This document shows, in pieces, positions 34,812-41,578 of a stretch of DNA of 64,000 bases. The stretch lies in NCBI GenBank assembly GCA_028577615.1, contig JAJSDU010000002.1, forward strand, positions 99,664 to 163,663, written 5' to 3'. The DNA comes from Nitrosomonas sp. (GTDB taxonomy: Bacteria > Pseudomonadota > Gammaproteobacteria > Burkholderiales > Nitrosomonadaceae). Made by a program: the position numbers and the translations under genes. Position 1 is the first letter of the stretch. Each line of letters starts with the position of its first letter. Below the pieces are notes generated by a model, which saw nothing but the letters and a program-made list of their open reading frames with translations, made no database searches and was not told the origin of the DNA.

Positions 34812-34880
34812 CATTAGTTTTATTAGTTTTTTCTGGAACGGCATGAGCCGATAGTGTGAATAATCAGGCAGAACACAAAG

Positions 34881-35177
34881 GAAGCTGGCCGGTAAGCCGG
34901 ATTCTGTCATGGACAGTCATTCATCTAGATGCACAGTTACCCGTACATTCAAGCAACCTACCCGCAGGCTCCGCGAGCCGCATCATCGCCTGCCTATTTG
35001 GCCTTGCTCCGGATGGAGGTTACCGCGTTTCACCGTAACTTAATACGCTCGTCTCTGTGGCCCTGTTCCTCGCCTCACGGCGTTCGGCCGTTAGCCGACA
35101 TCCCGCTCTGTGGAGTCCGGACTTTCCTCTCCCTGCTGCGCCGGGACGCAACAGGCAGCGACTGCCTGGCCAGCTTC
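34881..35177 (-). ncRNA. rnpB: RNase P RNA (M1 RNA), bacterial class A
   Basis: On the minus strand the 5' end GAAGCTGGCCAGGCAGTCGC and the 3' end GGCTTACCGGCCAGCTTC pair as P1. Universally conserved blocks are present: GAGGAAAGTCCGGACTCC, CAGAGACGAG, GGTGAAACGCGGTAACCTCCA, GGAGCAAGGCCAAATAGG, and ATGACTGTCCATGACAGAATCCGG. The length is about 297 nt, shorter than the E. coli form (377), mostly because the P12 arm is tiny (between GACGAGCG and GGTGAAACG). It catalyses 5' maturation of tRNA. Confidence 0.95.
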
Positions 35178-37368: not shown

Positions 37369-37435
37369 AGGCTTTCTTGTCAAAAAAGTAATATACTTGC
37401 AATTATTTCATATTTCCATTAGCTTCACAGCATCA

Positions 37436-39465
<2,030 letters not shown>

Positions 39466-39513: not shown

Positions 39514-40341
39514 ATGGATCTCACTCTGCTATTCAAAGCACTGATCCTCGGCATCGTCGAGGGGCTGACCGAATTTCTGCCCGTCTCCTCAACCGGTCAC
39601 CTGATTCTGGTTGGCGATCTGCTCGATTTCAACAGCGACCGGGAAAAGGTGTTCATGATCGCAATCCAGCTGGGTGCGATTCTGGCGGTCTGCTGGGAAT
39701 ACCGTCAAAAAATCACCGATGTTATGATGGGCATCGGTTCTGACCGGTCCGCGCAACACTTTGTGCTGAATCTGTTCATCGCGTTCATGCCCGCAGCCCT
39801 ACTGGGCCTGCTGTTTATCGATGTCATCAAGCAGTATCTGTTTAATCCGTTATCCGTAGCCACAGCGCTGGTGATCGGCGGCGTTGTGATTCTGTGGGCG
39901 GAGCGGCGCGATCATCGGATTGAAGTCGAGCAGATCGATAACATGGACTGGAAACATGCGCTGAAAGTCGGCTGTGCGCAATGCCTGGCGCTGATTCCAG
40001 GCACTTCCCGCTCCGGTGCGACCATCATCGGCGGCCTGCTGTTCGGTCTGTCGCGCAAAGCTGCCGCCGAGTTTTCCTTCTTCCTCGCCATTCCGGTCAT
40101 GTTCGCCGCAACGTTTTACGATGTCTACAAAAACCGCGCCATCCTGGAATTCGATGATATCGGCATGTTCGCCACCGGCTTCGTCGCCGCCTTCTTCAGC
40201 GCGCTTATCGCCGTGCGCGGCCTGATCCGCTTTATCAGCAATCATGATTTCACGGTTTTCGCGTGGTACCGGATTGTATTCGGCTGTGTTATTTTACTGA
40301 CGGCGTACACCGGGATAGTCGAGTGGTCCGCGTTTAATTAA
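39514..40341 (+). CDS. uppP: Undecaprenyl-diphosphatase
   Basis: A 275-residue membrane enzyme that recycles the C55 lipid carrier for peptidoglycan synthesis and confers bacitracin resistance. The two catalytic blocks are clear: [17 protein letters not shown] (16-32) and [10 protein letters not shown] (about 167-176). Eight hydrophobic segments are predicted. It follows thiC closely but probably has an unrelated role. Confidence 0.95.
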
Positions 40342-40397
40342 CAAGCGGTTGCTATTCAGCCCGGAATCGTTAACGTCGGGATATACATCAGTGAGGT

Positions 40398-40460
40398 AAA
40401 AAAAAACCAGCACACCATGAACGCCACAAAGGAGAAAGGGTGAAAACAGCGATGTGCTGG
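40398..40460 (-). terminator. Terminator of the candidate sRNA
   Basis: Eight-bp stem (CCAGCACA/TGTGCTGG), a long 38-nt loop with a possible internal CACC/GGTG pair, and a run of nine T on the minus strand. It could also serve as the uppP-side barrier since uppP is convergent. Confidence 0.7.
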
Positions 40461-40578
40461 GCAGTTCGTCAAAGATTTAAACTAACTATTCCAATCATCC
40501 GGCTACGCATGCTGCTGCGCTGACTGGTGCGGTCATACAGCTCAGATAAGGGCTTAATGAGAGCATACGAGCAGTATG
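40398..40578 (-). ncRNA. Candidate Fur-repressed small RNA
   Basis: No gene covers this stretch, yet the minus strand carries a full transcription unit. There is a TATAAT (40585-40590), a TTGCAA -35 (40609-40614, 18-bp spacer), a Fur-box palindrome filling the spacer, and about 180 nt downstream a hairpin (TGTGCTGG at 40453-40460 with CCAGCACA at 40407-40414, seen on the plus strand) followed by nine U. The hairpin loop contains a CU-rich tract (CACCCTTTCTCCTTTG) able to pair with AAGGAG ribosome sites. This resembles RyhB/PrrF/NrrF-type iron sRNAs in logic, not sequence. A 23-codon frame starting MLSLSPYLSC is inside but lacks a ribosome site. Confidence 0.6.
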
Positions 40579-40584
40579 GTTAGC

Positions 40585-40614
40585 ATTATAAATGATAATT
40601 GTTATCATTTGCAA
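40585..40614 (-). promoter_or_regulatory. Fur box overlapping a sigma-70 promoter
   Basis: AAATGATAA-TTG-TTATCATTT (40590-40610) is a 21-bp palindrome that fits the 7-1-7 Fur consensus (TGATAAT-N-ATTATCA) with a single mismatch. It sits between the -35 TTGCAA and the -10 TATAAT of a minus-strand promoter, so bound Fur would block RNA polymerase. Confidence 0.8.
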
Positions 40615-40733
40615 CATATTTTAACTGATACCAATCCACGCAGATCAATTCGCTTCGTGCAATCGGATGGATTTTTGGTGCGAGTAATTTCAGCAGGATC
40701 GTCACAGGTCAACGATCAACATCAAAAAACCAA

Positions 40734-40847: not shown

Positions 40848-41278
40848 GTTTGTGGAAAGAAATGCGCCGCTCATCTATATATAACCGGAATATCTGTTCT
40901 CGTTGAATCAGAATATGCGGCGGACGGCGCGCAGAATATCATTAATCGTTTTTTTCGGCACCGTGCCAATGATTTTCTTTCGTTATTTGTAACAATGGAC
41001 TAAACCATATACTCAGCCGGCCGGGCAATTTGTCCATCCTGTGCAAACGGGTACATCTTCAAAAATATGACCAAAGGACAATTTTTACAATGATGAATCC
41101 CGGATAAAGTTATGCGAAATTGAACAGCTGAAGAAAGACACAGCGATAGAAGCGATGGCAAGCGACATCTTTCGGGTTGACAGCCGGAGTAGCTGCCAGT
41201 GTGTATGCACTACGGCATGTTTCGCTGGTCTGGTAGCTTCTGGTTTGATTTTAATATCGGATACAAATGGAGATAATC

Positions 41279-41578
41279 ATGGAAAAAATAGTGAACACTA
41301 CACATAATAAGGCGGTGACTGACACACAAACTATTGCAAAGCATTTCGGCCGCAGTCACGAGGAATTAATTCACGCCCTGCGTGATTTGAAACGCGATTG
41401 CGGCACCGCGTTCAGCAAAGAGAATTTTGTGAAACAGGACCACAACAGCTTGCACTGGATCACATGCGCAGGATTCTTGGTCTTATCCGGATTGTTTGTG
41501 GGTGCGCGCGATACACGTATCAAAATCACATTTTTCGATGCATTTACCAAAGCACAGGAAAAAATCAACAACAGTTAG
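41279..41578 (+). CDS. Rha-like phage regulatory protein (orphan)
   Basis: A 99-residue protein whose TDTQTIAKHFGRSHEELIHALRDL start matches the N-terminal pattern of the Rha family (phage regulators with a small DNA-binding fold). The ending FFDAFTKAQEKI fits the family's FxxAFxxxE end. GGAG lies 7 bp before ATG 41279. No other phage genes surround it, so it is probably a leftover or a domesticated regulator. Confidence 0.65.
   Translation: MEKIVNTTHNKAVTDTQTIAKHFGRSHEELIHALRDLKRDCGTAFSKENFVKQDHNSLHWITCAGFLVLSGLFVGARDTRIKITFFDAFTKAQEKINNS

Follow-up and report, generated by a model that had tools for sequence, protein, structure and literature searches.

A predicted Fur-controlled small RNA of Nitrosomonas belongs to a multi-copy, apparently undescribed family of structured RNAs in chromosomes and viruses

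RyhB of the enterobacteria and PrrF of Pseudomonas are Fur-repressed small RNAs (sRNAs) that end at an intrinsic terminator and are found in hosts with Hfq, while CU-rich anti-Shine-Dalgarno loops are carried by the sibling sRNAs of Neisseria and by the cuckoo RNAs of Rhodobacter. Ammonia oxidizers are packed with heme and iron proteins. Among the betaproteobacteria, Neisseria has NrrF, a Fur-controlled noncoding sRNA whose targets are reported to include the sdhCDAB and petABC mRNAs (PMC5586341), and the siblings NgncR_162/163 (PMC5362039, PMC9973317) are a case of several related sRNAs per genome. Small RNAs termed psRNAs have been predicted in N. europaea, according to a secondary citation (Gvakharia et al. 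2010, FEMS Microbiol Lett 312:46, cited in PMC3927594).

The locus described herein lies in a window of 64,000 nucleotides of Nitrosomonas sp. DNA, by which we mean the whole stretch that was analyzed, and the RNA predicted from it resembles each of these systems in part. It shares with NrrF a predicted Fur control and a noncoding nature, and differs from it in being one of many copies in a family whose core hairpin is nearly invariant. It has in common with RyhB and PrrF the predicted Fur repression, the intrinsic terminator, and a host with Hfq, whereas its presumed pairing element lies in the terminator loop and its copies are dispersed and also occur in phages. The neisserial siblings and the cuckoo RNAs are similar in forming sets of several related sRNAs per genome with CU-rich loops, but Rfam gave no match connecting them with this RNA, the upstream regions here are of several kinds, and we know of no core hairpin like that of the window RNA in either group. 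The N. europaea psRNAs, as far as the citing source describes them, are likewise sRNAs predicted in an ammonia oxidizer, and what sets them apart here is a match to Rfam psRNA2 at another place (locus L077). The covariance models of RyhB, PrrF, and NrrF gave no match in the window at the gathering score or across 40350–40700 at E ≤ 10, a relaxed threshold at which the whole of Rfam returned chance-like matches alone for that interval. By analogy, the window RNA would most likely be controlled like the iron sRNAs of the NrrF and RyhB type and built like the sibling CU-loop sRNAs. Its parts, with the basis for each, are as follows.

40614–40609, minus strand: –35 hexamer TTGCAA (sequence; identical in the relative G002, loci L003/L066)
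40610–40590, minus strand: Fur-box-like 9-3-9 inverted repeat (13/14 to TGATAATNATTATCA)
40590–40585, minus strand: –10 hexamer TATAAT (promoter scoring; 18-nt spacer from the –35)
40578–40398, minus strand: predicted sRNA of ~180 nt (extent from the inferred start and the terminator)
40578–40534, minus strand: 5' hairpin region (minimum-energy fold only)
40535–40489, minus strand: conserved core hairpin (58.9 bits with core model R2, and covariation)
40460–40407, minus strand: terminator hairpin CCAGCACA..UGUGCUGG (sequence and covariation of the family stem)
40440–40423, minus strand: putative CU-rich anti-Shine-Dalgarno loop CCCUUUCUCCUUUGUGGC (sequence; pyrimidine bias of the family)
40406–40398, minus strand: nine-U terminator tail, nine T in DNA (sequence)

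The promoter, TTGCAA-18-TATAAT, has the top promoter-like score in the 38–43 kb interval (10/12), where promoter-like sites as a class are barely above chance (8 against a shuffle mean of 5.5, sd 2.5), and from the –10 spacing transcription would start near 40577–40579. An initial annotation of this DNA had placed a 21-bp Fur box between the two hexamers, and it does fill the spacer: the element AAATGATAA-CAA-TTATCATTT, which as a whole inverted repeat reads AAATGATAACAATTATCATTT, has perfect 9-nt arms flanking 3 nt and shares 2 nt with the –35 and 1 nt with the –10. Compared with the 7-1-7 Fur consensus TGATAATNATTATCA it has one mismatch and is the sole such site across the 64 kb; sites with up to two mismatches number two, against 0.33 per shuffled window. 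Hence, at the window copy a predicted Fur box overlaps the core promoter, the arrangement of a Fur-controlled sRNA. The same annotation described the stretch as gene-free and as ending, about 180 nt away in the same direction, in a hairpin with nine U, and both descriptions hold. No ORF of more than 40 aa lies wholly within 40342–40617 (ORFs listed from 30 aa), and the uppP-like ORF at 39514–40341 (+) is convergent to the predicted sRNA, as it is in G002. The U9 terminator was missed by a simple terminator scan with a loop limit of 8 nt, which found four sites, below the 6.2 of shuffles. Elsewhere in the window, a TPP riboswitch at 37429–37534 (Rfam, 60.7 bits) precedes an ORF at 37570–39465 that is thiC-like by eye, and the RNase P RNA lies at 34877–35177 (–). 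A 103-aa ORF at 41267–41578, in gene-poor surroundings 0.7 kb upstream of the sRNA promoter, weakly resembles the phage regulator Rha (25.5 bits, not reaching the Pfam cut-off of 29.9) and is possibly a phage remnant.

The locus proved to be one of many. A plain DNA search of 61 genomes, which preceded any model building, gave a match in G002 (E 1e-104, 95% over 238 nt) in which box, core, and terminator are all kept, together with shorter mid-block matches in G026 (E 1e-11, spanning the Fur box into the core), G022 (E 2.5e-9), G028, G031, G027, G020, and G007 amid many chance-like ones. Eight relative places share the order of upstream region, core, CU-loop stem, and T-rich end, as well as the core pattern CCGCACCA(G/A)(T/C)CAG(C/G)GC..AG(C/T)CGGATG..TGG; by eye, a Fur-like box is present at six of them (L003 to L008) and no obvious box at L009 and L011. 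A covariance search with a model built from nine copies (R1) gave 125 matches at E ≤ 0.1 in 41 of the 85 genus genomes, with at most eight per genome. In 100 fetched regions R1 has 106 matches at E ≤ 1e-3, among them a probably false one (L089:2501) and a few degenerate ones, and the unfetched matches have E values of at least 1.1e-4, except G101:C50 at 4.7e-6. A core model built from 92 cores (R2) matched 42 of the 85 genus genomes at E ≤ 0.01. R1 matches the window copy over 40400–40535; this copy was in the training sets of both models, and its 102.5 bits (R1) and 58.9 bits (R2) are not independent evidence.

Outside the genus, matches were few. Among 300 genomes drawn from the order, R1 matched five at E ≤ 0.01, three of them in the genus (own genome, G108, and G013) and two outside it and weak (E ~0.003), and among 369 genomes drawn from the class, R2 matched the own genome alone at E ≤ 0.001; these searches score part of the candidates under strict filters, and the absences are soft. 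A pattern scan of one genome per species (84,980 species) gave 48 stretches, eight of which were discarded (R2 core score below 25 bits or none), and the 40 with a core by R2 comprise 38 from Nitrosomonas, one from Gallionella, and one from a proteobacterium. The carriers include N. oligotropha, N. ureae, N. marina, N. aestuarii, and supralitoralis (titled Nitrosomonas); N. europaea and N. eutropha are not among the matches of this pattern, which is narrower than the model, in a scan where the inclusion of both genomes is unconfirmed. The copies sit at differing genomic places, yet the same order of parts recurs, and they are related to each other, so that counts overstate independent events. 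At the gathering score, Rfam 15 gave no match on a core or terminator, either in the window or in the 15 fetched regions (of 100) that were scanned; the matches obtained, to tRNA, RNase P, TPP, psRNA2, and CRISPR-DR9, all lie elsewhere. Literature searches in PMC, mostly of titles and abstracts, returned no description of this RNA, and we regard these structured RNAs of Nitrosomonas chromosomes and viruses as an apparently undescribed family. Conservation of the Fur box and terminator in relatives, on which the initial annotation had staked its claim beforehand, was found in G002 and in many dispersed copies; what that annotation could not have seen is the conserved core hairpin, or that the window locus has many relatives, part of them carried by phages.

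Several observations on individual copies may be recorded here. The own genome holds a second, degenerate copy (L159, G000:C51:2821-2972; 31.6 bits) with no strong Fur-like box (9/14). CRISPR repeats lie within ~150 nt upstream of the core copies L132 (244–280; CRISPR-DR9 in Rfam) and L151 (type I-E-like by eye). The proteobacterial sRNA psRNA2 of Rfam is found at L077:3039–3229 (87.5 bits), ~0.4 kb from a Fur-type copy and on the opposite strand.

The structure is argued from comparison and not from energy, because the 182 nt fold with an ordinary energy (z –0.96, with 33 of 200 shuffles equally good). In the model-fitted alignment 95.5% of cells are paired, and two-sided changes occur in 22 of the 23 pairs; they amount to 470 cells, where shuffles give 96.4 and none of the 500 comes as high, and pairing falls to 28–39% when the partner is shifted by one to three columns. 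Since that alignment is fitted to structure, the core was recounted in a MAFFT alignment of 92 cores that is not, and from which 14 of the 106 copies are omitted (ten weak or odd by eye, four with a duplicate core). Two-sided changes are seen there in 11 of 12 pairs, a number reached by three of 500 shuffles, and in 193 cells, where shuffles give 40.2 and again none of 500 comes as high. The terminator stem of the family shows two-sided changes in all 11 of its pairs; both positions of a pair are occupied in 85–95 of the 105 distinct rows, and 96% of the cells so occupied are paired. These compensatory changes support the noncoding reading of the initial annotation, and the U9 tail, the covariation, and small frames that are not kept in relatives together give the locus the predicted make-up of a stand-alone noncoding gene with an intrinsic terminator.

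Fur-like boxes recur upstream of part of the family. Sites of at least 11/14 lie ~20–110 nt upstream of the match in 41 of the 106 copies. The corresponding frequency in 17,683 random windows from the same loci is 0.95%, too easy a control given that those windows are largely coding; dinucleotide shuffles of the same 106 upstream regions, the fairer control because these regions are AT-rich (67%), gave a mean of 3.5 and a maximum of 9 in 100 rounds. Boxes at 13/14 number 12, against 0.08 in shuffles, and 31 of the 41 boxed upstream regions fall below 70% similarity when compared without gaps. The own genome encodes a clear Fur (154.7 bits) and a second member of the Fur family (52.1 bits). The other 65 copies score below 11/14, nine of them at 10, and Fur control would therefore be a property of a subset. 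By eye, the non-Fur copies among those read have GGGAACCAAT-like sequence before CTCTA, or ACCGYACAGA followed at ~20 nt by an AT-rich –10. One subtype, whose cores are ACCGCATCAACCAGTGC-like (L132, L136, L138, L140, L146, L148, L149, L154, and L155, some of which deviate), has, also by eye, a CU-rich hairpin loop preceding the core and, upstream, GGAACC(AAT)-like sequence ~15 nt before a CTCTA-like one, resembling an ECF sigma promoter.

Viral contigs contain 17 stretches with the pattern, 13 of which have a core, the other four being discarded. The viral copies L271, L274, L276, L280, and L281 closely resemble the copies L060 and L061. Only L274 among these five has a Fur-like box (11/14); in the remaining four there is an inverted repeat, AATGAGAATAAAACTCATTT, that scores 10/14 or is not the best site, and these are not counted as Fur-type. 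Upstream of the core lies a CII-like gene (PF06892 / phrog_101), at a distance of 95–98 nt in L280 and L281 and, with another ORF between, of 0.9 kb in L274. Searches of phage and plasmid records gave short, chance-like matches alone. The module is common to host and phage and, as read from its sequence context, is in some phages intercistronic and not part of an sRNA. Could the family as a whole be phage-derived, with a core that would be a phage early-operon structure (for example, for processive antitermination or as a leader) and with chromosomal copies that would be remnants or domesticated, lacking any trans-acting role? Consistent with this are the cores shortly after CII-like genes in prophage-like contigs (L280, L281, and L147, where the distance is 37 nt), a Gallionella prophage in which a YdaS/Cro-like gene is followed by the core and then an ORF with no terminator between, and the copies L176, L269, L270, and L147, where by eye the core directly precedes a ribosome site and ATG, again with no terminator. 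The weak Rha-like ORF near the window copy and the lean of box-less copies to the strand of the next ORF (34 to 17) point the same way. However, the terminator stem is kept by compensatory change across most of the family, and in six genomes a copy has stayed at a common position ahead of a 508-aa ORF, whereas remnants would decay. We retain this explanation because the module is shared with phages and is intercistronic in some, and we consider it improbable. The six copies (L075, L076, L081, L082, L085, and L090) are non-Fur copies ~280 nt before that ORF and make a good orthologous set for comparative target prediction.

An equally improbable alternative accepts the sRNA as real and has it act as a protein sponge through its core and not by loop pairing. 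The core of the window copy consists of stem 1 (CCAGTCA/TGATTGG) and stem 2 (GCGCA/TGCGT), with CCGCA at 40532–40528 and a 3' bulge AGCCGGA at 40504–40498. Across the family, it is the most conserved part, and the unpaired CCGCA and AGYCGGA are nearly invariant, as is the GGA within AGYCGGAUG, while loop sequences differ between copies, all of which a sponge would fit. Such near-invariance of unpaired bases is, at the level of sequence, the signature of a binding site or a tertiary contact, and the core hairpin is most likely a shared module that would bind an RNA-binding protein or an RNA partner. Against the sponge, the CU bias of the loop is family-wide, and the best-known reader of GGA, CsrA, is an unlikely partner, since the own genome (90.5% complete) has no CsrA match. 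CsrA binding of the core GGA was set aside on the same ground, and the window RNA does not resemble the CsrA-sequestering type (CsrB/RsmY), there being no CsrA match in the host and a single GGA in the core. A CCG/CGG pseudoknot between the conserved flank and the bulge is also conceivable; the nine deviating copies have no clear compensatory change.

We favor the reading in which the terminator loop pairs with mRNA. Pyrimidines make up on average 79% of the terminator loops and 55% of the linker (in the 95 of the 106 copies that have loops of at least 8 nt), and the motifs CCUCCUUU and UCUCCUUU occur among them. The initial annotation had called the window loop CU-rich and anti-Shine-Dalgarno; the CU-richness extends to the whole family, whereas an order-specific anti-Shine-Dalgarno signal does not go beyond composition shuffles (mean p 0.46), so that the signal is one of CU content. 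Between the window and G002, 17 loop nucleotides (CCUUUCUCCUUUGUGGC) are unchanged and flanking loop bases differ. Pairing of the loop with purine-rich ribosome sites would be the natural reading. The own genome encodes Hfq (102.1 bits) and the RNA has a U-rich tail, as in Hfq-dependent sRNAs, and we predict that Hfq is used here. The pattern AAAGGAGAA-N1..9-ATG occurs at 21 sites in the own genome (G000) and 13 in G002, against one and zero for the backward control. Thirty of these 34 sites were assigned to loci, which yielded 27 frames 25 aa or longer (two of them overlapping in one gene), and four pairs of candidate-target orthologues are common to both genomes, which by eye are a CxxCH protein, a small lipoprotein, an 89–90-aa protein, and an Hsp20-like protein. 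The loop duplex energies of the shared candidates lie within a background of 59 ORFs (7% to 37% as good), with none outstanding, and those of the whole sRNA were computed without a background. The CxxCH candidate, of heme c type by eye, has an ordinary duplex energy and matches no Pfam family in its first 70 aa.

Fur promoter, structured RNA, and terminator in series also have the form of an attenuator, and the RNA might thus be a cis-acting, riboswitch-like leader of an iron-uptake gene now lost from this place, much as the initial annotation had suggested in speaking of a lost receptor gene. The neighborhoods argue otherwise. The uppP-like next gene is convergent both in the window and in G002, and the next ORFs after Fur-type copies (at least 100 aa, called mechanically) are balanced, 19 on the same strand and 20 on the opposite one, with two copies having none, from which we conclude that these copies are stand-alone and not leaders. 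Recurring neighbors, by the same mechanical calls, differ in kind, each common to two or three loci, for example L092/L118/L139 on the same strand and L141/L144/L150 on the opposite one. This explanation is accordingly very unlikely for the window RNA. It should be noted that copies at 10/14 have the next ORF on the same strand in six cases and on the opposite strand in two (one none), and that in box-less copies the next ORF is more often on the same strand (34, against 17 opposite and five with none), so that only the Fur type can firmly be read as stand-alone and some box-less copies may be operon or leader elements. The tiny peptide mentioned in the initial annotation, in a 27-aa plus-strand frame or a 13-aa minus-strand frame, has in its favor that AAAGGAGAAAGGGTG (AAAGGAG..GTG, 40428–40442, +) is a good initiation site as written, and is the least probable of all, as this GTG is lost in G002, the minus-strand ATG is present only in the window copy and G002 out of nine copies in the first comparison, the core loop differs in length between copies in ways that break the frame, and changes in the stems follow pairing.

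Based on the sequence parts, the family with its covariation, the enrichment of Fur-like boxes, the CU bias, and the presence of fur and hfq genes, we consider it likely that the window encodes a Fur-repressed, trans-acting sRNA, a member of an apparently new family, that blocks translation through its CU-rich loop, probably with the help of Hfq. We propose the following mechanism, in which transcription, Fur binding, Hfq use, the targets, and the role of the core are all predicted. When iron is present, Fur would occupy the spacer box and block RNA polymerase; when iron is absent, the RNA of ~180 nt would be made, ending at the U9 terminator. Its CU-rich terminator loop would then pair with the purine-rich ribosome sites of target mRNAs, whose translation would be blocked, with Hfq probably holding the U tail and the core hairpin (CCGCA ... 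AGYCGGA) binding an RNA-binding protein or an RNA partner. More speculatively, and with distinctly less confidence, the core may be the element recognized in Nitrosomonas by an RNA-binding protein or RNA hub yet to be discovered, so that one module of core plus CU-loop terminator would have been placed under Fur or other promoters in dispersed paralogues, with phage copies, some of them with Fur-like boxes, near CII-like genes.

The literature searches returned no account of post-transcriptional iron rationing in ammonia oxidizers, and the window RNA is a concrete, testable candidate for an iron-responsive sRNA in these organisms, with family members in the cultured species N. oligotropha, N. 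ureae, N. marina, and N. aestuarii. The family to which it belongs is an RNA motif with strong covariation and without an Rfam match, multi-copy in many genomes of the genus and present in phages. If the core is indeed recognized by such a partner, the iron status of a nitrifier and the decisions of its phages would be read out by one RNA family.
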